Under the pieces are notes generated by a model. It saw nothing but the letters and a program-made list of their open reading frames with translations, was not told the origin of the DNA and searched no databases. Below are positions 2,281-47,245 of a stretch of DNA of 64,000 nucleotides, in pieces. Location of the stretch: positions 1-64,000 of the IMG/VR virus record IMGVR_UViG_3300001533_003144. One strand, given 5' to 3'. How positions within the stretch are numbered: position 1 is the first letter of the stretch; each line of letters begins with the position of its first letter. Source of the DNA: a virus. Position numbers and translations under genes: made by a program.

Positions 2281-2452
2281 TAAATCGAGCTTCAGTATAA
2301 GTTTGGGGAAAGGAATTACATTGAATATTATTCCAAATATTAAGATTACTGTTTACGGACGCAAAATCAATTAAGATCTGATTTAAATTGATTTAGGCAA
2401 CATAATCAAGTTGCGTATTAATTGATTGTTTTATACACTCAAGGAGAAAATA
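2281..2452 (+). other. non-coding junction upstream of inserted restriction-modification genes
   Basis: This 172 bp spacer is where phage-like sequence gives way to the inserted cassette. It contains an inverted repeat, AAATCAATT at 2364-2372 and AATTGATTT at 2386-2394 with a 13-base loop, followed by GCAAC (2397-2401) and GTTGC (2410-2414). These could be control sites for the methyltransferase promoter or remnants of the insertion event. No coding sequence is supported here. Confidence 0.5.
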
Positions 2453-3397
2453 GTGAATCGAGTTGAATCAGTGGAACAAGAAAGATTGTTTAAGGATATC
2501 AGCAAGGGGGAGGTTTTAGAAAAAGAACCGGTAGCATCTTTTTCAAAAATATTTAAAAAGAATGATAGCTGTTTGTTTGAGGGGGATTGTTTTAAGTGGC
2601 TCAAATCTCTCCCATCTGAGTCGGTTGATCTTGTTTTTGCCGATCCTCCGTACAACATAAAAAAGGCAGACTGGGATAAGTTTGAATCCCAAGAAAAATA
2701 CATTGATTGGTCTATCCAGTGGATAAGTGAAGTCGCCAGAATATTAAAAAAAGATGGAACACTCTATGTTTGTGGTTTTTCCGAGATATTGGCTGACATA
2801 AAACACCCGGCTATGAAATATTTTGAATCCTGTAAATGGATAGTATGGTACTATAAAAACAAAGCAAACATAGGAAACGATTGGGGTCGGTCACATGAAA
2901 GCATCCTGCATTTCAGAAAATCTAAAAAACCAACTTTTAATGTAGATGATGTTAGAATTCCATATGGAGAACACACACTAAAGTACCCGTCTCATCCACA
3001 GGCTGAGACGAGTCAATACGGTAATAACGGAAAACGAAAGGATATCTGGACCCCGAACCCAAAAGGTGCAAAACCAAAAGATGTAATTGAAATTCCAACC
3101 ACATGCAACGGAATGGGCGAAAAGACCCCTCACCCTACACAAAAACCAGAAGAATTATTAAGAAAAATCATTTTTGCGTCTTCAAACCCTGGAGACTTGG
3201 TAATAGATCCTTTCTCAGGCTCTGGCACCACTCTGGTTGTTGCAGAGCAATTAGGCAGAAAATGGATGGGATGTGAGCTTAACAGTGACTACAACAGTTA
3301 CGCTATATCCAGGCTCCAAAATGTTATTTATAGAAGTAAAGATGAGTGGATTGAACATGACAGAAAAAATGAAAAAAGGAGGAAATCCATCAGATGA
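2453..3397 (+). CDS. beta-class amino DNA methyltransferase of an inserted R-M cassette
   Basis: The GTG at 2453 follows AAGGAG by 6 bases. The motif order is that of beta-class N6-adenine or N4-cytosine methyltransferases: catalytic motif IV DLVFADPPYNIKKADW comes first (about residues 60-75), and the AdoMet site VIDPFSGSGTT comes near the C-terminus. A WGRSHESILHFRKSK segment typical of the class lies between. Length (314 aa) is normal, so the enzyme looks intact. The stop overlaps the start of the restriction enzyme gene (ATGA), the arrangement of a type II R-M pair. Codon and base use differ from the neighbouring phage genes (more AAA/ACA/CCA, fewer GGT/TTT runs), which supports recent transfer. 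Confidence 0.85.
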   Translation: MNRVESVEQERLFKDISKGEVLEKEPVASFSKIFKKNDSCLFEGDCFKWLKSLPSESVDLVFADPPYNIKKADWDKFESQEKYIDWSIQWISEVARILKKDGTLYVCGFSEILADIKHPAMKYFESCKWIVWYYKNKANIGNDWGRSHESILHFRKSKKPTFNVDDVRIPYGEHTLKYPSHPQAETSQYGNNGKRKDIWTPNPKGAKPKDVIEIPTTCNGMGEKTPHPTQKPEELLRKIIFASSNPGDLVIDPFSGSGTTLVVAEQLGRKWMGCELNSDYNSYAISRLQNVIYRSKDEWIEHDRKNEKRRKSIR

Positions 3398-4116
3398 ATT
3401 TAAACGAATTAAGAGAATTTGCGTTGAACAAAGAAAACTTTACTTCCTTACAAAACTATATTGATTTTTGCTCCCACTACCTAGAATTTATATCTACAAA
3501 TCTTCAGGCCGTCATTGTATCGAGAAACGAAAACCATTATCGATTTTATCAATATAAAGAAGATGGAACATATAATGTAACTAGACCTATAAATAGCAAC
3601 ATCATGCTGTCTTTAGATCAAATTCCCAACACATCCTCTGAAATGTTTAGGATCCTTGACGAACTAAAAGCAACAAGAAACAGCCTAAATATAAATGGAG
3701 AGGCCTTGAACAAACTAGTTTATACCTGCCAACAATCAATTGGTGCGACACTCGATGCTCTCCCAGCAAAAAAATCCAACTCAGCAAGAAAAATAAACGG
3801 AGATCTCTTTGAAAGACTTGTTCTTTTTTTGTTACAGCATATCGGCATTAATGTTGCTCCCGGCAATGTCCGGGTTCCCATCAGAGATACGGGACAATTT
3901 ATGTCTTACCAACATGACCTGATAATAAAGGTTGAAAATGAAACAAAAGCAATTGGTTCAGTAAAGACCTCAAGTAAAGACAGAATAGATAAAATCTTTG
4001 TTGATAAATATCTGTACAATAAGCTCACCGGATCTGAGGTGCCCCATTTTGCAATATTCTTAAATGATGTTCAGAGAAAAGGGAAAGAAGGTAAATACAG
4101 TATCTATAACCACTAA
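3394..4116 (+). CDS. type II restriction endonuclease-like protein, probably 3'-truncated
   Basis: It is translationally coupled to the upstream methyltransferase. A PD-(D/E)XK-like core is visible: NGDLFERLVLFLLQH (E in the helix), then QHDLIIKVENETKAIGSVKTSSKDR, where D and the V-K pair fit the catalytic D...(E/S)xK pattern. It continues DKIFVDKYLYNKL and AIFLNDVQRKGK. The frame then runs directly into the returning C5 methyltransferase sequence and stops after YSIYNH. From memory, related enzymes continue well past the LNDVQR segment, so the C-terminus looks lost. Whether the 240-residue product still cuts is unknown. Confidence 0.6.
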   Translation: MNLNELREFALNKENFTSLQNYIDFCSHYLEFISTNLQAVIVSRNENHYRFYQYKEDGTYNVTRPINSNIMLSLDQIPNTSSEMFRILDELKATRNSLNINGEALNKLVYTCQQSIGATLDALPAKKSNSARKINGDLFERLVLFLLQHIGINVAPGNVRVPIRDTGQFMSYQHDLIIKVENETKAIGSVKTSSKDRIDKIFVDKYLYNKLTGSEVPHFAIFLNDVQRKGKEGKYSIYNH

Positions 4117-4330
4117 AGGTGGTGGTCTTGGAGCTAAGACAGGTTTGTATAAAGTAGATCTTCCTGATGGTGATTATATTATCCGGAAACTAACCCCTTT
4201 GGAGTGTGAGCGGTTACAGACCTTTCCGGATGGTTGGACAGAGGGCATAAGTAAAACACAACGGTACAAGTGTTTAGGGAACGGTTTTACTGTTTCGGTG
4301 ATTTCGCATATAATAAAACAGGTGTTATGA
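4064..4330 (+). pseudogene. DNA cytosine-5 methyltransferase, 3' fragment
   Basis: This fragment carries motif IX (RKLTPLECERLQTFPDGW) and motif X (KCLGNGFTVSVISHI) of the C5 methyltransferase whose front half is at 1720-2280. The frame is open from an ATG inside the restriction gene, but no ribosome binding site precedes it. Homology starts only near nt 4095 (TTKGGGLGAKTGLYK), so the first 10-15 codons belong to the cassette. The whole target-recognition region between motifs VIII and IX is absent, so cassette insertion was accompanied by a deletion. Confidence 0.8.
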
Positions 4331-9739: not shown

Positions 9740-10019
9740 AGAATTTATTAAGAAACATTCATTAATTAAGAAGAGCCTGATAACTGATCGGTTTTGGGAC
9801 GATTTTACTTCGGAGTTTAAGACGGTGGTGAAAGCTCAGAACGGTGAGAAGAATCCTGATGGTTTCTTTTCTGCTGTAAGGATAATGAAATCTAAATGGG
9901 ACTCTATCAGGATCCACAGTGGTAACACTTATTTTACCGAAAAGGCTTGGGGATGGTTTTATGCCAATAAAGTTATCCCTTATAAAGAAGAGATATTCAA
10001 ACCTGTTGAGGAGAAATGA
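9729..10019 (+). CDS. hypothetical protein, 96 aa
   Basis: The ATG lies inside the end of the upstream gene, with GAGG of GATGAGGTAG 8 bases before it. The protein is basic, helical and Trp-rich toward the C-terminus (AWGWFYANKV). No family is recognised. It is coupled to the methyltransferase that follows. Confidence 0.5.
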   Translation: MKPKEFIKKHSLIKKSLITDRFWDDFTSEFKTVVKAQNGEKNPDGFFSAVRIMKSKWDSIRIHSGNTYFTEKAWGWFYANKVIPYKEEIFKPVEEK

Positions 10020-10020
10020 T

Positions 10021-11712
10021 ATGATCTTAGTAGAAAACCCTCGTACAGAGCTGCTAATAGGAGATAGCTTGGAAATTCTTAAAACATTTCCTGATGAGTC
10101 GGTTAATACTTGTATAACCTCTCCTCCTTATTATGGCCTCAGGGATTATGGAACTGCCGAATGGGAAGGTGGTGATGCCGCCTGTGATCATATTGAGAAG
10201 TTTACGAAACATTCAGGACAACGAGCGGATGGGGATCAGTCCAGTCGGGTGTTTTTAGCGAAAGAGGTTTGTTCTAAGTGTGGTGCAAAAAGAATTGATC
10301 GTCAGGTTGGTCTTGAAGAAACTCCTGAAGAATATGTCCAGAAACTGGTTGAGGTTTTCCGGGAAGTGTATAGGGTACTTAAAAAAGATGGGACTCTATG
10401 GCTTAACTTAGGTGACAGCTATTCAAGTCAAGGTGGTAGTCAGGTAGAGCAATCTATCAGAGGAAATAAAAATAGTGTCAATTCAGGACAGCTCGAAAGT
10501 AGGGGTTCTGGAACATCAAGAAATGTTGTCGCAGGACTCAAGCCCAAAGACCTTATAGGTATTCCTTGGGCCGTTGCAAAGGCATTAAGGGACCCTTACT
10601 ATGCTGGTAATATTACACAAGAAAAAGACAGGGCGTGGATGGCCGCAATGATTGACGGGGAGGGTACTATCTGTGGGTTTGTACATAAAAGAAAAGATGA
10701 TGGTAGGACAAGGACGGGCATAAATATTAATATCACCAATTCCAGTATATGCTTGCTTGATGAATCCTATAGAATATGGCCTACAAGCAGAAGGGAACCC
10801 AATCATCATGGCAAAGGGCATTTAGGCAGCTTACCCACAATGAGATGGATAGTACATGGAACTGAAAACAAGATATTGTTTTTAAGAGAAATATATCCAT
10901 ACTTAATTGCCAAAAAAAGACAGGGGCTGCTTGCATATAATTTACTTGTTCTTCAGCAAAAAGCCAAACACTATGGCAAAACGCCTCAAAAAGACAGCGT
11001 TAGTAATAAAAGGGCTTTAATATGCGAACTAATATCGAAATGCAACAAGCAGATACCCGTTGACATCCCAGATTGGTGCATTGAACCTCCTTCACTTTAT
11101 GAACAGGGGTTCTATCTCAGGCAGGATATAATTTGGAGTAAAGGGAATCCGATGCCGGCAAGCGTAAAAGACAGGTGTACAACTTCGCACGAATATCTTT
11201 TCCTGTTGTCGAAAAGTCCAAAATATTATTTTGATAATAAAGCTATTCAGGAATTTGCTTCTGGTTATGATGGTAGAAAAGATACTATGATGAAAGGATC
11301 TGAAAAGTATAAAGTTCCTGTTGTACCTGGTCAACCTGAACACACTATGGCAAGTAGAGGTCACGAGCGTTGGAAATTTGATGATTCAGGTATTCCTGTT
11401 AGAAATAAAAGATCGGTATGGAAGGTTAATACTAAACCTTATCCGGGGGCACATTTTGCTACTTTTCCTGAAGAACTTATTACTGATTGTGTCCGGGCAG
11501 GTTGTCCTCGTGGTGGGGTGGTATTAGACCCTTTTGTAGGTTCAGGTACTACTTTATATGTGTCAAGGGTATTAGGTCGTAAGTCTATTGGAATAGATCT
11601 TAACCCCGGTAGTGAGTATCTAGTTGACTGTAGGTTGAAAGGGCAGACTCCCGTAAAAAAAGATTGCAGTGATTCTATGCAACTAACTTTTTTCTCCGGA
11701 GAAGAGGGTTGA
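10021..11712 (+). CDS. amino DNA methyltransferase with an in-frame LAGLIDADG-type insertion
   Basis: The ATG at 10021 is used, since catalytic motif IV CITSPPYYGLRDYG lies about 35 residues in. SPPY is common in N4-cytosine enzymes. A zinc-like CSKCG lies at about residue 85. The AdoMet motif VVLDPFVGSGTT is near residue 500. Between AVAKALR and FYLRQDIIWSKGNP sits an insertion of about 173 residues with a LAGLIDADG-like motif (AWMAAMIDGEGTI). Homologues without the insertion would join these two segments. No intein splice residues are present at the junctions, so the domain probably stays in the mature enzyme. Confidence 0.85.
   Translation: MILVENPRTELLIGDSLEILKTFPDESVNTCITSPPYYGLRDYGTAEWEGGDAACDHIEKFTKHSGQRADGDQSSRVFLAKEVCSKCGAKRIDRQVGLEETPEEYVQKLVEVFREVYRVLKKDGTLWLNLGDSYSSQGGSQVEQSIRGNKNSVNSGQLESRGSGTSRNVVAGLKPKDLIGIPWAVAKALRDPYYAGNITQEKDRAWMAAMIDGEGTICGFVHKRKDDGRTRTGININITNSSICLLDESYRIWPTSRREPNHHGKGHLGSLPTMRWIVHGTENKILFLREIYPYLIAKKRQGLLAYNLLVLQQKAKHYGKTPQKDSVSNKRALICELISKCNKQIPVDIPDWCIEPPSLYEQGFYLRQDIIWSKGNPMPASVKDRCTTSHEYLFLLSKSPKYYFDNKAIQEFASGYDGRKDTMMKGSEKYKVPVVPGQPEHTMASRGHERWKFDDSGIPVRNKRSVWKVNTKPYPGAHFATFPEELITDCVRAGCPRGGVVLDPFVGSGTTLYVSRVLGRKSIGIDLNPGSEYLVDCRLKGQTPVKKDCSDSMQLTFFSGEEG
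10591..11109 (+). mobile_element. LAGLIDADG homing-endonuclease-like domain inserted in methyltransferase
   Basis: The single motif WMAAMIDGEG (nt about 10636-10665) is followed by VHKRKDDGRTRTGININIT, IWPTSRRE, a WIVHGTENK segment and LREIYPYLIAKKRQGLLAYN. This is the beta-beta-helix pattern of LAGLIDADG domains. One motif implies action as a dimer if it is active. The boundaries are set by the flanking methyltransferase sequence and are approximate. Base composition differs from neighbouring phage DNA. Confidence 0.65.
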
Positions 11713-11715
11713 GTA

Positions 11716-11726
11716 TCCGTATTATA
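11716..11726 (+). promoter_or_regulatory. class A promoter-like motif TCCGTATTATA, copy 2
   Basis: Exact copy, starting 3 bases after the methyltransferase stop and ending 82 bases before the sigma-like gene. This is the longest leader among the class A copies and contains a hairpin at 11770-11790. Confidence 0.65.
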
Positions 11727-16445: not shown

Positions 16446-17543
16446 ATGTATCAGGTAAATGTTAAGGAGATCAAGGCTCTCTTCCGGACAATTCAATCTA
16501 AATCAGAGGCAATTGAATATTTCAGTAAGTTTTCTGGTAAATTTTATGCCTTTGACTATGAAGCAGCCGCAAAGGATCCTACTCAGGCAGTGTTGTATAA
16601 AAAGGCTTATATTATGGGGGTTTCTTTCAGTTATGATTATAATGAAGCTGTGTATCTCCCCATTAAACACCGTTCAGAAAACGCAGAACCCAAAGCCTTA
16701 GAGGTAGCTTTGGAGTTTATGCGGTCGTATCCCTCTGTAGCGTTTAATATGCCTTTTGAATATGGGTTTACTAAATATCATTATGGTTTTACTCCGACTG
16801 TTTATACAGATGCCGGGGTACTCGCTAAGGTCTGGGACAGTAATTTACCTAATGGGCTGAAGGCTTTAATTTTGGCTCTTTACAAATACAAAATGCAGAC
16901 ATTTGAGGAAGTTACTAATAACAGAAAAGACTTTTCTACCGTTAGTGTTAAGGAGGGGTTTTTTTATGGGGGTTCAGACAGCCTTTGGACTTTCCGGGTA
17001 GTTTCTGACTATGAGCCTAAAATAAAACAGGACGAGGGGTTAGCTGGTATTTTGCGTATAGAAAATCAACTTATTCCAATTATGTGTGAAATGATATATA
17101 ATGGTATTCGTGTAGATCTTGATTTGTTGAAAGAATATGATCCAATAGTCCTTAACCGGGTGAAAGCTCTTGAGAAAGAATTACATCGTTTAATTCGGGA
17201 TCGTTGTCCTGATCTTGTTTCAGATGGTATTATTCCGGGAACTTCTGTACTAAACTGTAACCTTAATTCGCCTAAGCAGCTAATGGAATTGTTTCACCGT
17301 TTAGGAATGCATATAGAAAGCACAGGTAGTGCCGTGCTTAAAGAGTTGGGAGATCCTGTTGCAGAAGTTCTTACAGAATATAGAAAGGAGATGAAGCTGT
17401 ATAATACATATATAAAGGCATACTATAGTCATATTCAGGAGGATAACATTGTACACTTTGGCTTGCATCAGATTGGGGCACCTACCGGTAGAATGGCTGG
17501 GGTAACTCCTAATCTTATGGCAATTCCTAAAATAAGGTCATAA
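16446..17543 (+). CDS. DNA polymerase family A, N-terminal half (3'-5' exonuclease and thumb)
   Basis: The exonuclease ExoI motif is FYAFDYEAAAKD (about residue 32) and an ExoII-like VAFNMPFEYG is near 100. Thumb and palm-entry motifs follow: RIENQLIPIMCEMIYNGIRV, NSPKQLMELF and finally APTGRMAGVTPNLMAIPKI. The protein stops there, exactly before the palm catalytic motif A. The remainder is encoded at 19264-20424 with three genes between. No 5'-3' exonuclease domain is present. The halves must associate to give an active polymerase. Confidence 0.9.
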   Translation: MYQVNVKEIKALFRTIQSKSEAIEYFSKFSGKFYAFDYEAAAKDPTQAVLYKKAYIMGVSFSYDYNEAVYLPIKHRSENAEPKALEVALEFMRSYPSVAFNMPFEYGFTKYHYGFTPTVYTDAGVLAKVWDSNLPNGLKALILALYKYKMQTFEEVTNNRKDFSTVSVKEGFFYGGSDSLWTFRVVSDYEPKIKQDEGLAGILRIENQLIPIMCEMIYNGIRVDLDLLKEYDPIVLNRVKALEKELHRLIRDRCPDLVSDGIIPGTSVLNCNLNSPKQLMELFHRLGMHIESTGSAVLKELGDPVAEVLTEYRKEMKLYNTYIKAYYSHIQEDNIVHFGLHQIGAPTGRMAGVTPNLMAIPKIRS

Positions 17544-17554
17544 AGGAGGTTACT

Positions 17555-18121
17555 ATGGTCGAAAAGAAGGAAGTTATGGCAGTGGTTACTACGAACCCTT
17601 TAAACATTTACAAGGTGCTCGGGTCTTTCAGTGAAAAGAAACACACTAAAACAATTGAACTGGAGGATGAGTATTATGTTAAATGTGTTCATCTCGGATC
17701 AGATGGGTCTATTAAGGTTGGTATTGTTATTGATCCTGAAAAGAGGGATTATTTAAAAACGCATTTGGATGATGGTTTTGAGTCTGAATCAGTTCAAACA
17801 GGTCTGGATGATCTGGATTCTGTGGATACCAATACACCTATGGAAGGTTCTCAGGAAAAGAGTAGTATCCGTAAGTTGTGGGAAAGTTGGGTTAGGTTTG
17901 AGGGGAACACTATTGTAGTTGATCGTATTGAGTTCTTTGATGAGTTGCATGTCTTTACAGATTTTAAACACGCTTTTTCTAATGTGTATTATTTAAACCC
18001 CTCCTGCTGTGAAAGTGCTTATATGATAATAAATACAAGGAAAGAGGTACTTTGTTCCTGTTGTGGTAAGACCTACCCCTCTACAGGGTGGTGTAAACCT
18101 AAGCCGTCAATAACCTTTTAA
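17555..18121 (+). CDS. hypothetical protein between polymerase halves, 188 aa
   Basis: AAAGGAGG precedes the ATG. The N-terminal two thirds is acidic with a low-complexity Asp/Ser linker, and the C-terminus carries a probable zinc site (NPSCCESAYM and LCSCCGKTYP). No homing-endonuclease motif is seen, which argues against it being the agent that split the polymerase gene. Confidence 0.55.
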   Translation: MVEKKEVMAVVTTNPLNIYKVLGSFSEKKHTKTIELEDEYYVKCVHLGSDGSIKVGIVIDPEKRDYLKTHLDDGFESESVQTGLDDLDSVDTNTPMEGSQEKSSIRKLWESWVRFEGNTIVVDRIEFFDELHVFTDFKHAFSNVYYLNPSCCESAYMIINTRKEVLCSCCGKTYPSTGWCKPKPSITF

Positions 18122-18131
18122 GGAGGAGCTA

Positions 18132-18668
18132 ATGTTGTGGTTATCTGAAATTAAACTGGATCAGATCTTAACAAGTATAGATAATAAAGCGTTTTTAGCT
18201 GAGGTGACTCCTCACTTTGTTGCGGAAGAGCACAGGTTATCTAAGATGTTAGAAAATATTCAAAAAGGTGAAACGGATCCATATCAGCTTGAGACCTTTT
18301 CAGGGGATTTTTTAGACATACTTTCCGGGCTGGTGCCGGTAAAAGCTATGTTTAATCTGCTGATTATAAAGGTATCTGAAAAACTTCTGGAGCAGGGTTA
18401 TGGCAAGCCTGATAAAGAAAATGTAGCTCGGATGTTGGTTATGGTGTTGGTTAGCCGTGCTTTCCAAAAGGCAGAGGCTTTACCTATCCCCGAAGATATA
18501 GAAAAGGCAGGGGGATCTTTAAAAAGGTCGTATTACCTTACGAACGCTATAATGAATTGTGGGTTGTTTACGCATACCAATGATCCCGAAGTGTTTTTAC
18601 ACGCTTTAAAAGGTATGGGTTATAAGGTTAAGGACTTTAATGTAGGAGAAAACAATGAACAAGGTTAG
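18132..18668 (+). CDS. hypothetical protein between polymerase halves, 178 aa
   Basis: A strong AAGGAGGAG site precedes the ATG. The product is soluble and mainly helical, without Cys clusters or known catalytic motifs. The stop overlaps the next gene by 14 bases. Its position suggests a replication accessory role, but nothing in the sequence shows it. Confidence 0.55.
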   Translation: MLWLSEIKLDQILTSIDNKAFLAEVTPHFVAEEHRLSKMLENIQKGETDPYQLETFSGDFLDILSGLVPVKAMFNLLIIKVSEKLLEQGYGKPDKENVARMLVMVLVSRAFQKAEALPIPEDIEKAGGSLKRSYYLTNAIMNCGLFTHTNDPEVFLHALKGMGYKVKDFNVGENNEQG

Positions 18669-19218
18669 GTGGTTGTTTCTTGATGATTTATCTTTTGGGC
18701 TGACTCCCAAAGAGGTAGCTAATGCTTTAAAAAAGCGTGGTAGGTATGTTCGTTTAGTATATTTTATAGAGAAAGAGGTGTCCGAGGTAGATACACTTCG
18801 ACCCTTGTTTGAGCTTACTGCATTTAAAAATGGTTTTCCTGATTTTGTTATGGAACAATGTCCAGGGTATGATGAATACCTTTTTGTTATTTTTAATAGC
18901 TCTGTGCCTCATCTTCTGTACCATCAGCCGGATCGGGGGGTTGCACAGTCTATGTACATGAGGATTATAGGGTCTTTTGATATTATTACAGATCATTTTG
19001 CTCTATATAACGGACCTGAAAGGGTTCCTGAAGAAATTAACCGGTGGGAGTTTGTTACATTAATGACTAACAGGAAGTTTTATACTTCTAAATTTGAAAC
19101 TCTGGAATCTTTTGTGTCTTACTTAGCTTCAGACCCTCTTGTGGGTATAGATGCCTTTAAGAAGGAACCTTTAGTGGAAATTTGTGAGTTGAGTTTTAAA
19201 AACCTATCCCGTGTTTGA
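18655..19218 (+). CDS. hypothetical protein between polymerase halves, 187 aa
   Basis: The ATG follows GTAGGAGAAAACA and overlaps the preceding gene. A hydrophobic strand with acidic residues begins the protein (VRWLFLDDLSFGL), and a pattern of alternating strands and helices suggests an alpha/beta fold. A class A promoter follows the stop. No family is recognised. Confidence 0.55.
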   Translation: MNKVRWLFLDDLSFGLTPKEVANALKKRGRYVRLVYFIEKEVSEVDTLRPLFELTAFKNGFPDFVMEQCPGYDEYLFVIFNSSVPHLLYHQPDRGVAQSMYMRIIGSFDIITDHFALYNGPERVPEEINRWEFVTLMTNRKFYTSKFETLESFVSYLASDPLVGIDAFKKEPLVEICELSFKNLSRV

Positions 19219-19225
19219 TTTTCTA

Positions 19226-19236
19226 TCCGTATTATA
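19226..19236 (+). promoter_or_regulatory. class A promoter-like motif TCCGTATTATA, copy 3
   Basis: Exact copy ending 27 bases before the ATG of the C-terminal polymerase half. It would let that half be transcribed separately from the N-terminal half. Confidence 0.7.
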
Positions 19237-19263
19237 TAGGTAGGTTGTTTTGAGGAGGTCTCT

Positions 19264-20424
19264 ATGGCTAGTCAGACAGTAGATCTTAGAAAACTTTTTT
19301 TACCCTCTAAGAAAGACTGGTGTTTTGTTGATGCCGACTGGGCACAGGTAGAGAACCGTATTGGTGCTATTCTTACAGGAGAAACTTTTCTGTTAGAAGC
19401 TTTTGAAAGGGGTGAGGATATATATAAAAAGGTTTATTCTCAAATGTTTGGTGTTTCTTTAGATTCTGTTACCAAAGAACAGAGACAAGTAGGAAAGTCT
19501 CTTGTTTTGGGTCAGAACTATGATATGACTTATGTAGGACTATCTACTGCTTTAGGGTGTTCTGAGGTTCAGGCTAAAGAGTATGTGCAGCAGTATAAAG
19601 ATTCTCATCCTATGACTCAAATAGCAAAACAAAGTCTTATGGATTTTTGTAGGTCTAACGGGTATATAAAGACACATTTCGGTAGGATTCGCTATATTAA
19701 GGATATAAATTCTACCGATAAGACCCTTCGGTCTATGGCAGAGCGAGAGGTTTGGAATACCTATATTCAGGGGACAGCTTTGGATATTTTGAAAATATCT
19801 TTAATTAGGTTGGATGGTCTTATTAAAAAGGAAGAGAGGGTAGCTCGAATAGTTTTACCCGTACACGATGAGATTTTGTGTGAAGCCTCTGTTATTGAGG
19901 AAGATATTTGGGATGTATATTTGCTAATTAAAAGGGCAATGGAAGTTGAGTTGAAGGGAGTCAAATTACCAGTTGAAGGGGAATTTGGTTGGTCTTTCGG
20001 AGGTCTGTATCCTTCTTTTGAGCTCTTTGTAGAAAACTCTCCTAAAGAGTATCAAAAGAGGCTATTAGAATCTTCTTACTTTAAGCAAAGGGTTGAGGAA
20101 GATGTTCCGGAAAAGGATATTCCTGAGATTAAAGAGTCCTTCGTTGAAAAGGATGTTCCTGATGAAGAGCAAAAAGAAGAGGCTGTCAGGGTAGTTGAAA
20201 CTGATTATCAGTTACCTGCTTTTGTTAAGTATATAGATAAGGCGGCTGAGGTTCCTCTGGATTTCCTTCTCAAGGTAGCCGATTATAAGGATCCTTTCGG
20301 GTATTGTGTTTATTTTGTGGTTTCTCCTGATAATGCTACTTACAAACTGCCTTATAAGGTTAGGGCGGAATTTAAGTTGGTTTTAGAAAAACTTCAGGGA
20401 AAATTGGAGTTATTGTCTGTTTAA
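19264..20424 (+). CDS. DNA polymerase family A, C-terminal half (palm and fingers) with extension
   Basis: Palm motif A VDADWAQVENRIGA is near residue 20, fingers motif B RQVGKSLVLGQNYDM near 75 and motif C LPVHDEIL near 200, so all catalytic polymerase residues are here. The first residues (DLRKLFLPSKKDW) pick up the family alignment where the N-terminal half stops. After the polymerase core (about residue 255) comes a linker with repeated acidic VPEKDIPE / VEKDVPDEE and a further domain of about 80 residues not found in ordinary family A enzymes. Tyr follows Asn in motif B, where most enzymes have Tyr-Gly. Confidence 0.9.
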   Translation: MASQTVDLRKLFLPSKKDWCFVDADWAQVENRIGAILTGETFLLEAFERGEDIYKKVYSQMFGVSLDSVTKEQRQVGKSLVLGQNYDMTYVGLSTALGCSEVQAKEYVQQYKDSHPMTQIAKQSLMDFCRSNGYIKTHFGRIRYIKDINSTDKTLRSMAEREVWNTYIQGTALDILKISLIRLDGLIKKEERVARIVLPVHDEILCEASVIEEDIWDVYLLIKRAMEVELKGVKLPVEGEFGWSFGGLYPSFELFVENSPKEYQKRLLESSYFKQRVEEDVPEKDIPEIKESFVEKDVPDEEQKEEAVRVVETDYQLPAFVKYIDKAAEVPLDFLLKVADYKDPFGYCVYFVVSPDNATYKLPYKVRAEFKLVLEKLQGKLELLSV

Positions 20425-31348: not shown

Positions 31349-32254
31349 ATGGATTCTAAGCTTCTCAAAGATTCCGCTATTGCTGATATGGTTAATGAAT
31401 TAAAAAAATTTCCTCCGGAAGCTAGATTCCATATTATTTTTCGTAAACTTATGGATGATGTTTATGATCGGCTTGTTCCTGATATGGATAAGTTTCTTTT
31501 TGATCCTCGGTTCTTGGGGTTTTCTGAGAGACAGATATTTCCTAGAGTCAGGGAAGTCTTGAATGTAATAGATCAGGATGATATTCGTGAGGTTTATATT
31601 GTTGCCGGTAAAGGTTCGGGTAAGTCGGTTATTGTGGGTATCTCCAAGTTGCGGATGCTTTACAAAGTCTTATGTTATGTTAATCCGAGTGCGTATTTTG
31701 GGCTTCTTCCGGGTACTTATATTGCGGCAGTTAATATGTCTATTAATAGCAGTCAGGCTTTAAATGTTATTTTCAAAAGGTTTTTACATTACCTTAATCA
31801 ACTGGATTCTTTTAAAAAACTTACTAAACAGGCAATACTTAAATACAAAAAATCCGAACAAGACAAAGAATTTAGTCTGCATAACTATGATTTGAAAGAG
31901 AACTTATCTAAATACGAGCTTTATGCGGAGACCGTAGGTATGGTTACTTTTCCGGGTAAGGATATAGTTGCAATATCCGGACACAGTAAAGCAAGTGCGT
32001 TTTATGGGTACGATGTTATTTTTGGTAGTATTGATGAGATGTCTTGGTTTGAGACAGGTAAGGAGAGGGTTTCAGATACCGATGAATTGCCCTCAGAAGA
32101 AATATATCAGGGTTTAAGTTCTTCGGGTTTATCCCGTTTTCCTGATCAGTATAAGATCGTGTCTATAAGTTCTCCAAGGGCACGAGTAGGAGACCCTTTG
32201 TGGAAAAGGTATGAGCGTGTTAAGAATATGGGTTCGGTTTTTACTGCTTTATAA
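31349..32254 (+). CDS. terminase large subunit, N-terminal ATPase part
   Basis: Walker A VAGKGSGKS is at residues 85-93, Walker B VIFGSIDEMSW near 228 and coupling motif III KIVSISSPRA near 278. The protein ends just after that (RYERVKNMGSVFTAL). A typical TerL continues into a linker and RNase H-like nuclease, and that part is on a separate gene at 34550. Three genes lie between. The 301-residue ATPase part is complete as a motor domain, so packaging needs the two subunits to assemble. Confidence 0.85.
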   Translation: MDSKLLKDSAIADMVNELKKFPPEARFHIIFRKLMDDVYDRLVPDMDKFLFDPRFLGFSERQIFPRVREVLNVIDQDDIREVYIVAGKGSGKSVIVGISKLRMLYKVLCYVNPSAYFGLLPGTYIAAVNMSINSSQALNVIFKRFLHYLNQLDSFKKLTKQAILKYKKSEQDKEFSLHNYDLKENLSKYELYAETVGMVTFPGKDIVAISGHSKASAFYGYDVIFGSIDEMSWFETGKERVSDTDELPSEEIYQGLSSSGLSRFPDQYKIVSISSPRARVGDPLWKRYERVKNMGSVFTAL

Positions 32255-34549: not shown

Positions 34550-36061
34550 ATGATGTCTGATGATCGCTTAGAAATGTACCGGAGTGGGTCGAAGGTTGCT
34601 ATAAAAGGTTCCACTTGGGTTTTTAAGGGGGTCTCTAAAGATCTGTTTCAAGATGAGTTTGATTCTAATCCTGTAAAGGCTCGAAGAGATTATGGTGCAG
34701 AGCCTCCTGAAGGTTCTGGTAATGCTATTCCTATGCCCGAACTTATTGATACCTATTCAAACAAAGGCAGGGAGGACCCTGTTGACAGTTCATTAAACCG
34801 GTTGGGCTGGGTTGTTCCTCCGATCTTTGAGTGGTTTGTTGGGGATCCTCGGTTTAACTATTACCTACACTTTGACCTTTCAAAGTCAGGAGACCAGACA
34901 GGTTTAGGTCTGGTGCATTATGATCATTATACTAATATGTATGCAGCTGACCTTATAATGAAAATCCCTGTGTCAAAAGACTGGAATCTCAAGTTTAAGT
35001 CTATAGAGATTTTGGTAGATTTTTTGATTGGTAGAGGGTTTTATTTGGCAACAGTTAGTTTTGATGGTTTTCAGTCTTTACAGATAATACAAAACCTGAC
35101 AGCTAAAGGTATAAATGCTTTACAGTTTTCGGTGGATCGTTCTCCGGAAGCTTATGATACCTTAATATCTACAATTCTTCAGAATAGGTTTGATTACTAC
35201 TATCATTATACTTTTTGTGAAGAACTTAAAGCAATTCAGATAGTGGGTAATAAGTATGATCACCCTTCTGGAGGGTCTAAGGATGTAAGTGACGGTGTTG
35301 CCGGGTCTTTAGCTAATTGTGTTAGGGCTTCTACGGCCGTTGCTTTTAACCGGGAAGATCTTTCCGATGTTTTTATTGATTCAGAAATGGTGTTTGAAGA
35401 CGGTTTCGTTATTGATAAAGAAACCGGGGCTGTTGAAATAACTAATTTACACGCCATTCGTTACGGTAATTTAAGCAGCTTTTATATAGACTCCTATGAA
35501 GATGTAGTTTTAGTGTTGCGAGGGTATCTTGAGAACCGTGTTTTCTTTTTGGATTATGTTGAGTTGTTTGATTTGGGTACTCCTAATTTATATGATATTC
35601 TCCTTAATTTAATCTCAGCCTTTAAACCTGCGTTTGTAGGCTTGGGTCGGTCGGTATCTTTCCATATTGTGGATATGCTTAGGGAAGCTAGAATTCGTGC
35701 TGTTTCTGCTGATACCGGTAGATTGGATACTGCTTCCAACAAAAACATCCGGGTAGTTCGTCAGAATCTTAGGGAGACAATAGAAACTTTGGTAGCTCAG
35801 ATAAAACAAAAGTCCTTTAAAGTTGTAGATCGCCTAACTATATTTAATCAGCTTTCCGAACTCAATTACAATAACTACCAGAACAAGTTATTAGCAGTCT
35901 CTATGGGGGCTTGGTTACATTATATGCTACAGGAAACTAAAAGGAGTTTAGGTAAGATGCCAAGACCCGTGTTGGGTGGGGAGAATGTTTCTTATTCGGT
36001 AAGAACACCCTCTGTCCCCAATGCAAGGCAAGGGGGTCGCCCTAAACCAAAGTTCCGGTAA
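34550..36061 (+). CDS. terminase large subunit, C-terminal nuclease part with extension
   Basis: The start (ATG at 34550 or 34553) is weakly preceded by GGTG. After KVAIKGSTWVFK, which aligns with the TerL linker strand, the RNase H-like nuclease residues are visible: LHFDLSKSGDQTGLG, TVSFDGFQS and SKDVSDGVAGSLAN give the three acidic positions. After about residue 260 there is a further domain of about 240 residues (LFDLGTPNLYDILLN onward) ending in a Pro/Arg tail. The extension is longer than in usual terminases. It would join the ATPase part at 31349. Confidence 0.8.
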   Translation: MMSDDRLEMYRSGSKVAIKGSTWVFKGVSKDLFQDEFDSNPVKARRDYGAEPPEGSGNAIPMPELIDTYSNKGREDPVDSSLNRLGWVVPPIFEWFVGDPRFNYYLHFDLSKSGDQTGLGLVHYDHYTNMYAADLIMKIPVSKDWNLKFKSIEILVDFLIGRGFYLATVSFDGFQSLQIIQNLTAKGINALQFSVDRSPEAYDTLISTILQNRFDYYYHYTFCEELKAIQIVGNKYDHPSGGSKDVSDGVAGSLANCVRASTAVAFNREDLSDVFIDSEMVFEDGFVIDKETGAVEITNLHAIRYGNLSSFYIDSYEDVVLVLRGYLENRVFFLDYVELFDLGTPNLYDILLNLISAFKPAFVGLGRSVSFHIVDMLREARIRAVSADTGRLDTASNKNIRVVRQNLRETIETLVAQIKQKSFKVVDRLTIFNQLSELNYNNYQNKLLAVSMGAWLHYMLQETKRSLGKMPRPVLGGENVSYSVRTPSVPNARQGGRPKPKFR

Positions 36062-44277: not shown

Positions 44278-44615
44278 TGATCGCAAATGCTGTTGTTAGT
44301 GAGATACTTGAAGGAATATCTTTTCCTTCTAGTTTCAGGTTAGTTAGTTCTACAAAATTACCTAACGAGATATTAAGTCGGTTTGAGGTGTTGGTTCAGA
44401 ATTCCGAGACTGTACAGGTGGTTAGGTTTGATGTTTGGGTATCTGAGTATGATGGTGTTGTTTTAGGTTACAGGATTAATGATTATTTAGGTAATGTTTT
44501 ATCTGTTTTAAATGATGATACTGTTCAGCCTTATTTTTATGTTCAGGATCACCGGCAGTATATGGCGGATCTGGGTAGAGTAGCTGTTCGGTTTGGGAGG
44601 TCAAGGTGGCTTTAA
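44277..44615 (+). CDS. hypothetical protein, 112 aa
   Basis: The start overlaps the preceding stop (TAATG). The product is beta-rich with a basic end and overlaps the portal gene start by ten bases. It is likely a small virion or portal-associated protein. No motif is recognised. Confidence 0.45.
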   Translation: MIANAVVSEILEGISFPSSFRLVSSTKLPNEILSRFEVLVQNSETVQVVRFDVWVSEYDGVVLGYRINDYLGNVLSVLNDDTVQPYFYVQDHRQYMADLGRVAVRFGRSRWL

Positions 44616-47245
44616 GATATAAAAAAAGAAGGGGTGTTTCTAAACCTTCTGCAAGGGCTGTTGGTGTAGCAGCCTCCGGGGGCTTTAGTTCTACTTCTTC
44701 TTATTCTATGACTACAGGTACTCCTGATATAAGGGATCCCTTATTTTCTCCGGAAGGTTTTTATATCACTAATCAGGATATTAAGACTTATAATAGGTGG
44801 ATACGGTATTATGATGCTTTTCACCCTATTTTACCTAACTCTTTGGACATACACTCACTGTTCCCTATCAGTGATTTTAGTTTTAAAGGCATTGAAGATC
44901 CTTTTGTATCTAAATTTTATACTTTTGTTAAGGATGATGTTCTCAGTCTCCTCGACTGGGTTATACTTGTCTCTACGGAGTATGAGCGGTTAGGTGAGGC
45001 TTTTTCTTTTTTTCAGTGGGATACCTATAACGGGTACTTTAATACGGCTACTATACTTAATCCTGATCTGCTTGAGATTTATCCGTTTGAATGGGACGGT
45101 TCAAAAAGGTTTGTGGTGTCTATGGATATTCCCGAAACCTTTCAAGTTCTTTATGATAAGAAAGGTGTTGATTCTCGTTATAGGGGTATGTGGTTATCTC
45201 TCGACCCTGTTATTAGAAGATGTGTGGAGTCGGGTTTGCCTATACCTCTTAATCCTGACAATGTTTTTGGTATGCAGAGGTTACAACATGCTTACGATGT
45301 CCGGGGGACTAGTCAGGTGTTGCGTGTCCTGAAAGACCTGATGTACGAAGATAAGCTCAGGGAAGCTCAGATGGCTGTAGCCGATGGTCATATTACTCCT
45401 TATCAGTTATGGAAAATAGGTAACTCACAGCAAGGGTATGTCCCTACGGAAGGGGAACTTGCTGAGTGGGATAAAATGTTAGCAAATGCCGAACACCAAA
45501 ACCTGTTTAGAATAGTAACACACTCGGATGTTGCTTATGAGACTAAAGGGGTTTCGGAGGGGCTTTTAAATATAACCGGTGAAATGGAAAAGATAGAAGA
45601 TCGTATTTTAACTGCTCTATATACCAGTCGAAGTATGACTACGGGTGAGGGTCCTTGTGTTAGTGCGGACACTGAAGTTTTAACGGCTTCTGGGTTCAAG
45701 CCTTTTCCGGAAGTTACTGTAAAAGATTTGGTTGCCTCTGTAAATCCTTCTACACACGAGATAGAGTATTGCTATCCGAAAGAAGTTCTGTGCTTTGATG
45801 TAGAAGGTCCTATGTTTCTCTTTAAGAATAATGCTTTGGACCATAAAGTGACCCCTAATCACCGGTGTTTTGTTAAAACTTCACCTAAAAAGCCTTTTGA
45901 GATATTGAGGGCTGAGTTGATTAAAGGGCATCATAGGTTTATGACTGGGATAACCCCTTTTAAAGGTCAGGATGTTTCCGAGATAAAGATTGGTAATAGG
46001 GCTTATCCTATCGAGGATTATCTTAAATTAGTTGGGTTATATTTATCAGAAGGTAATATTGATTATTCTAAGTCAAAAAATTGTGCTGGTGTTTGTATTA
46101 CTCAGACAAAACAGCATAAGAAAGGATTAAACCCTAGGTTTTTAGAGATATCTGAGGCTCTTTTAAAGTTCAGTCCTCATTTTTATTTTTCAGAGTTAAA
46201 ATCTCCTCAAGGGAGTAAAGGTAGGTTTCGTTTATATGATCCAGAGCTTGCTAAACATATCGTTAAAAATTATGGATGTGGTTCCCTTAATAAGAAAATA
46301 CCTCTTTGGGTAAAAGCTCTTTCTTCTCCTTTGCTTGAGAATCTTTTAGAGGGCTGTTTCCTTGGTGATGGTTCTTTCACAAATAAAACCCGTTCTTCAG
46401 GGGGCTACGAGATATATACGATTTCTAAGGCTTTAGCCGATTCTCTTCAGGAGGTTGCTTTAAAGTGCGGGAAGGTTTCGATTATCAAGTTGAGGAAAAG
46501 ACCTTTACCTAGGAAAGACTTATATCGTGTCCGTATATACTGCCCTGGAGATGTCCGTAAAGAGGTTTTCAAATACCCTTCTTTAGGTAGAACTTCTGCT
46601 ATAAAGACTGAACTTTATAAAGGTAAGGTGTATTCTTTGGATTTACCTCCTAACAGGCTATATGTGTCCCGTAGAAAAGGGAAAATAACGGTTACAGGGA
46701 ATACTTACAGTAATGCTGTAATAGGTTTAAAGGTTCTTGAGGGTAGGTATCAGAATAAGTTGTATCGTATCTCTTCAACTATCCGGAGCCTTTTTAAGAA
46801 GATTGCTTATGCCAACGATTTTTATGAGACTACTCAGGCCGAGCTTTCACACGGTGTCCGGAGATCTAAAAAAGATAGGAAACTGTTGGTCCCTATGGTT
46901 CATTGGGATAATTATTTCAGCTTTTCAAAAGATATTGAAAGGGCAAAGTTTTACCAAACCTTAGCTCAGGCACATAAAATAAGCTGGAGAAGGGTATTGG
47001 AGATATTGGGTCTTGATTTTGATGAGGAACGCAAAATCCTTGCTGAGGATATGAAAACTATTATGGATACCGATGTGTATAAACAGAAAATAACTGATTT
47101 TACGGGTAAAGAAGATCCTTATGCAGGGGGTTCCCCTACGGATCTTTCTTCTCCTCCTAGTCCGGGAGAGGTGGCTATGGAAGATGTAGGGGCGGAAGTT
47201 ATGGAGGATGTTGGTGCCCCCCCTTTACCTGATATAGATGTCTAA
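44606..47245 (+). CDS. portal protein with intein
   Basis: The GTG at 44606 follows GGGAGG. The extein parts (350 and 180 residues) join as GEGP|TYSNAVIGLKVLEGRYQ, the conserved portal segment of large myovirus-like phages, with upstream segments such as YRGMWLSLDP and downstream helices RSLFKKIAYANDFYE. The spliced protein of 530 aa has normal portal length. The C-terminus is acidic and Pro/Gly-rich. Interruption by the 45656-46702 intein is clear; the portal identity rests on the extein pattern and its place before protease, scaffold and capsid genes. Confidence 0.75.
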   Translation: MALRYKKRRGVSKPSARAVGVAASGGFSSTSSYSMTTGTPDIRDPLFSPEGFYITNQDIKTYNRWIRYYDAFHPILPNSLDIHSLFPISDFSFKGIEDPFVSKFYTFVKDDVLSLLDWVILVSTEYERLGEAFSFFQWDTYNGYFNTATILNPDLLEIYPFEWDGSKRFVVSMDIPETFQVLYDKKGVDSRYRGMWLSLDPVIRRCVESGLPIPLNPDNVFGMQRLQHAYDVRGTSQVLRVLKDLMYEDKLREAQMAVADGHITPYQLWKIGNSQQGYVPTEGELAEWDKMLANAEHQNLFRIVTHSDVAYETKGVSEGLLNITGEMEKIEDRILTALYTSRSMTTGEGPCVSADTEVLTASGFKPFPEVTVKDLVASVNPSTHEIEYCYPKEVLCFDVEGPMFLFKNNALDHKVTPNHRCFVKTSPKKPFEILRAELIKGHHRFMTGITPFKGQDVSEIKIGNRAYPIEDYLKLVGLYLSEGNIDYSKSKNCAGVCITQTKQHKKGLNPRFLEISEALLKFSPHFYFSELKSPQGSKGRFRLYDPELAKHIVKNYGCGSLNKKIPLWVKALSSPLLENLLEGCFLGDGSFTNKTRSSGGYEIYTISKALADSLQEVALKCGKVSIIKLRKRPLPRKDLYRVRIYCPGDVRKEVFKYPSLGRTSAIKTELYKGKVYSLDLPPNRLYVSRRKGKITVTGNTYSNAVIGLKVLEGRYQNKLYRISSTIRSLFKKIAYANDFYETTQAELSHGVRRSKKDRKLLVPMVHWDNYFSFSKDIERAKFYQTLAQAHKISWRRVLEILGLDFDEERKILAEDMKTIMDTDVYKQKITDFTGKEDPYAGGSPTDLSSPPSPGEVAMEDVGAEVMEDVGAPPLPDIDV
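45656..46702 (+). mobile_element. intein with LAGLIDADG-type endonuclease in portal gene
   Basis: The 349-residue intein starts with Cys (CVSADTEVLTASGF, block A) and has block B VTPNHRCFVK with the catalytic His. Two LAGLIDADG-like motifs follow, LVGLYLSEGNID and LLEGCFLGDGSF. It ends with GKITVTGN followed by Thr as the first extein residue. The penultimate residue is Gly, not the usual His. Inteins with altered penultimate residues can splice, but slower. The endonuclease motifs look intact. Confidence 0.85.

Follow-up and report, generated by a model that had tools for sequence, protein, structure and literature searches.

In the large uncultured phage analysed here, the family A DNA polymerase (PolA) is encoded in two genes separated by three others, which is a rare arrangement. 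We consider it very likely that the polymerase gene underwent fission and that the two polypeptides assemble non-covalently into one polymerase. The window, i.e. the whole stretch of DNA that was analysed, comprises bases 1-64000 of a 119,995-base IMG/VR virus record (G000). Nearly all the genes of G000 are on the + strand, with a median intergenic gap of 9 nt, and the relatives of its capsid and portal include Bacillus phage G. A cluster of replication genes surrounds the split polymerase, with members at the following positions:

12476: AEP/LigD-type primase
22212 and 23536: SbcC/SbcD-like genes
29333: clamp loader
61898: DnaB helicase

No family B or C polymerase was detected in the 120-kb record, and the family A polymerase in two genes is the only one detectable in it.

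Organization of the split polymerase locus

The features of the locus are as follows:

16446..17543, +: PolA N-half (365 aa), with exonuclease, thumb and first palm segment, ending in TGRMAGVTPNLMAIPKIRS
17484..17531, +: conserved TGR..NLMAIPK motif, in alignment with NLQNIP
17544..17549, +: ribosome binding site AGGAGG of intervening gene 1
17555..18121, +: intervening gene 1 (188 aa), orphan, with a cysteine-rich C-terminus, possibly a zinc ribbon
18132..18668, +: intervening gene 2 (178 aa), orphan
18655..19218, +: intervening gene 3 (187 aa), orphan
19226..19236, +: promoter-like motif TCCGTATTATA, 38 nt upstream of the C-half ATG
19252..19258, +: ribosome binding site GAGGAGG of the C-half, 5 nt before the ATG
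19264..20424, +: PolA C-half (386 aa), with the rest of the palm, the fingers and a C-terminal extension of ~140 aa
19330..19359, +: motif A (DADWAQVENR), C-half
19483..19521, +: motif B (RxxxK...L...Y), C-half, with Leu at the position of E. coli F762
19861..19872, +: motif C (VHDE), C-half

The preliminary description of this DNA had proposed a two-gene family A polymerase with three genes inside, and both open reading frames were indeed found at these coordinates, with complementary coverage of PF00476. In Pfam searches the N-half matched profile positions 29-133 (E 7e-15) and the C-half positions 139-379 (E 1e-59); the halves thus adjoin in the alignment, each as an intact open reading frame with its own start, and the family is covered once. 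The TGR/NLQNIP motif and motifs A, B and C are all present, spread over the two genes. When compared with solved structures, residues 35-361 of the N-half align with Klenow, from the exonuclease to NLQNIP (Klenow chain positions 30-357), while the alignment of the C-half with Bst Pol (E 1e-37) starts one residue before RKLF and runs through motif C. The match of the exonuclease domain to PF01612 was below the cut-off (E 0.005); its DxE and YxxxD motifs are kept, and the Asp of exo II is replaced by Glu. Published work associates Leu at PolA position 762 with temperate phages and with enzymes that are slower and more accurate (PMC6302109, PMC13228545). The extension of the C-half (20011-20421) aligns partly with the C-termini of Herelleviridae polymerases.

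The last N-half residue homologous to fused polymerases is K362 (17529-17531). The N-half goes on for 3 residues past the end of homology and the C-half begins 3 residues before it restarts, in agreement with the earlier statement that the C-half starts where homology resumes. In the joined halves, ~20 homologous residues separate NLMAIP from motif A; this is within the range of 16-37 observed in 51 distinct fused relatives, which indicates that no part of the polymerase has been lost or doubled. The break sits in a variable-length loop between TGR..NLQNIP and motif A. It had been placed at the boundary between thumb and palm; according to the usual Klenow and Taq domain scheme, it is actually inside the palm subdomain.

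From the N-half to the C-half the genes are spaced by 11 nt, 10 nt, a 14-nt overlap and 45 nt, i.e. 66 noncoding nt. None of the three intervening genes gave a match in Pfam (above cut-offs), PHROGs, NCBIfam or in tblastn searches against 50,697 phage records, and structures predicted without alignments for genes 1 and 3 reached a pLDDT of 34 and 41, respectively, too low to be informative. The absence of a homing endonuclease motif pointed out in the preliminary description is borne out, with no such family found in Pfam, PHROGs or NCBIfam, yet this is weak evidence, since the three genes are orphans and could include a diverged endonuclease.

Expression signals and a model for the two-part enzyme

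The claims that each half has its own start and ribosome binding site and that the C-half has its own promoter also hold: both halves have a start codon, GAGGAGG precedes the C-half, and the promoter takes the form of a recurrent, phage-specific promoter-like motif, TCCGTATTATA. The 120 kb contain 12 exact copies of this motif; all are on the coding strand, and most precede a gene by 11-100 nt (other copies include those at 11716, 22173 and 26516). With one mismatch allowed, 15 copies were found versus 1-4 in six shuffles. A generic sigma-70 scan revealed no enrichment. The nearest copy upstream of the split gene (11716) precedes the gene run that contains the N-half and the three intervening genes; the same motif is therefore located before both gene runs, which suggests that the two halves may be expressed from one promoter class. 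The C-half would open a second transcription unit and, sharing its promoter motif with the operon of the N-half, the halves would be co-produced.

In the model that we propose, the N-half polypeptide would supply the proofreading exonuclease, the thumb and the first palm segment, and the C-half polypeptide the fingers, which carry motif B, and the remaining palm, which carries motifs A and C. The separately translated halves would then join without a covalent bond into one polymerase. Given that the primer-binding TGR of the N-half and the catalytic Asp of the C-half must meet, neither half should polymerise alone. The two protein halves probably still give one working enzyme, and by analogy with the split T4-type enzymes this is most likely a functional heterodimer (PMC2988022).

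Gene fission versus other explanations

The preliminary description had considered this an established fission and not a fresh intron. The first part is well supported, fission being favored over an intron by the scant noncoding DNA, the unstructured RNA at the boundaries, the start, ribosome site and promoter motif of the C-half, and the uniform codon usage, with the scores of both halves and of the three intervening genes within 1 standard deviation of the genome mean. That it is established we only infer, since no relative sharing the polymerase split was found that could show its long-term conservation.

A group I-like self-splicing intron holding three open reading frames, whose removal would restore a single polymerase, appears improbable to us. 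Family A phage polymerases are interrupted in the same motif, 7 codons upstream of this break, in SPO1 gene 31 (after TGRLSS.P) and in Staphylococcus phage K pol (at the equivalent TSRLSSSNP), and an in-frame junction between the halves of G000 can be drawn. However, those are spliced group I introns with endonuclease genes, and the downstream exons of SPO1 and K open without an ATG, whereas the C-half has ATG, GAGGAGG and the promoter motif, and none of the three open reading frames in the gap is a recognisable endonuclease. The core of an intron was taken to require ~200 or more structured noncoding nt, against a noncoding total of merely 66 nt in the gap, and the RNA at the boundaries is as stable as shuffled sequence (z -0.7 and +0.7 for the two 300-nt stretches), compared with z -3.5 for the first 300 nt of the SPO1 intron and z -1.9 for the noncoding start of the second intron of phage K. 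An Rfam search of G000 yielded no match; this silence weighs little, because in the positive controls the two introns of phage K were missed and that of SPO1 was only weakly found, below the gathering score.

The replacement of Asp by Glu in exo II and the location of the break within the palm could also be expected of a broken relic in a phage that relies on the host polymerase. This is very unlikely: both open reading frames are intact, keep the conserved motifs, have ribosome sites, show codon usage typical of the genome and belong to a replication cluster, and no alternative polymerase was detected in the record. An assembly artefact that wrongly placed three genes inside a continuous gene would be conceivable in a metagenome assembly represented by one record only, but the break coincides exactly with the boundary of homology, where a new start, a promoter motif and a ribosome site are also present, and the insert shares the codon usage and tight spacing of the genome, making such an error extremely unlikely. 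Finally, inteins are present in the same motif of other phage PolAs (L114, L077, L089) and in the portal gene of G000 itself, and yet there is next to no likelihood that the halves are joined post-translationally through a split intein, which was rejected because the 3 non-homologous residues at the break end of each half leave no room for intein parts.

Comparison with relatives and with known split or interrupted polymerases

As the preliminary description had suggested, fused versions were sought among relatives. The PolA loci nearest to the C-half in IMG/VR, some of them near-copies of one another, have the gene in a single frame in all cases (80 of 80), and every polymerase matched in a scan with a PNLMAIP DNA pattern was a fused PolA. 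The gene is likewise fused in G001, G002 and Rctr197k, and a single open frame holds the PF00476 matches of Tunturi_5 and of LR745208. Searches of IMG/VR (with the C-half, the N-terminal half of the large terminase TerL and the clamp loader singly) and of GTDB genomes (with the C-half) yielded no close relative that covers the polymerase locus. No PolA was found in 30 contigs with related capsid genes, of which 29 are ~30% identical and the other is the 21-kb fragment G003, and these capsid cousins are therefore uninformative on the polymerase.

Three PHROG families may represent standalone halves (phrog_2573, 12241 and 9556): phrog_2573 corresponds to C-terminal parts of Herelleviridae polymerases, and the best match of phrog_9556 is the N-half of MEP401. 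The family A polymerase of OM43 phage MEP401/MEP402 (Methylophilales; OP830906) has already been reported as split (PMC10580990). As in G000, the exonuclease and the N-terminal part of PF00476 are in one gene (gp13) and the C-terminal part in another (gp15), with an unknown gene between them, and the break is also located between the NLQN motif and motif A. It lies, however, ~13 residues closer to motif A, and one 77-aa open reading frame separates the halves instead of three genes. The split enzymes of G000 and MEP401 were grouped in 0% of 200 bootstrap trees, MEP401 being a long branch, which makes the placement less certain; this topology is consistent with splits that may be of separate origin.

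Gene 43 of Aeromonas phage 25 / 44RR (43A/43B) also encodes a phage replicative polymerase as two polypeptides, but this polymerase is of family B, and what separates its halves is a homing endonuclease gene or an untranslated spacer; gp43A/43B of phage 25 co-purify and are active, and the split NrdA of Aeh1 is functional (PMC2988022). PolB of Methanothermobacter thermautotrophicus is another natural two-polypeptide replicative polymerase, although archaeal and of family B (PMC7776575). The polymerase described here stands out through its exact break, the three intervening genes, the separate promoter motif and the fact that another essential gene of the genome is split too.

Genes are interrupted repeatedly between TGR and motif A. 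Besides the introns of SPO1 and K, inteins are inserted after TGRxS or PN in the PolA of L077, L089 and L114. Given that this short stretch is invaded by introns as well as inteins, a homing-related origin of the split is plausible but unproven, and it may have arisen by invasion of this homing-prone conserved motif. A former intron or intein at the break, lost after breakage of the gene, would fit, and so would a cut by a homing endonuclease leading to a multi-gene insertion. In addition, the PolA of LR745208, a 485-kb phage (L026), appears to hold two inteins in the palm/fingers region, and that of L228 is seemingly interrupted right at motif A.

Considered alongside the MEP401 split and the introns and inteins that SPO1, K and others carry, the break marks the TGR-to-motif A stretch as a recurrent target of interruption. 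Being natural and situated in the palm, ~20 residues away from the catalytic aspartate, it would reveal to what extent the core of a family A polymerase can rely on non-covalent assembly, and it provides a native site at which two-part polymerases could be divided.

A split terminase and other genes with apparent insertions

TerL of G000 is divided as well, with three genes separating its parts, and the arrangement was compared with that of G003, whose capsid is 77% identical:

31349-32254: TerL ATPase part, G000 (terminase match)
34550-36061: TerL nuclease part, G000 (terminase match)
L207 100-1038 and 3849-5342: TerL parts, G003
32259, 43598, 47717, 49921 and 53191, and beyond the window 69033 and 79309, +: TTTATATAATA

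The two TerL parts of G003 are 45% and 47% identical to those of G000, and the order and the intervening genes are the same. An essential gene that has undergone fission can thus remain split in this lineage, and the retention of the split TerL in G003 makes persistence of the PolA split plausible, although not proven. The nuclease part of G003 has an in-frame TAA (L207 ~4020-4030), read through in G000, which might be an error, a pseudogene or a case of recoding. A late-like motif, TTTATATAATA, lies between the TerL halves of G000; its seven exact copies are all on the + strand, 25-47 nt upstream of genes, and probably represent a late promoter class.

It is possible, though we consider it rather unlikely, that the lineage keeps polymerase and terminase as stable two-gene heteromers, their dispersal being a maintained design and not an accident. 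Both genes are broken at conserved motifs, both have multi-gene inserts, and there is a promoter motif in each gap, which would make the parts separate transcription units. If so, dispersal could perhaps serve regulation, or shield the genes from homing elements whose target is the intact motif. Next to the split terminase, the split polymerase makes purposeful splitting of essential enzymes in large phages a testable idea.

Other genes of G000 also carry insertions. The portal gene (44606-47245) contains an intein at about residues 354-684 that is missing from the portal of G003, and a DNA methyltransferase (9919-11712; phrog_5046 match) has an internal LAGLIDADG-like insert with no obvious intein ends. 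A C5-cytosine methyltransferase gene (1720-2280, 4064-4330) is apparently broken by an insert made up of another DNA methyltransferase (2426-3397) and a further gene (3394-4116), whose outlying codon usage (z -2.6, -2.8) suggests a recent insertion.
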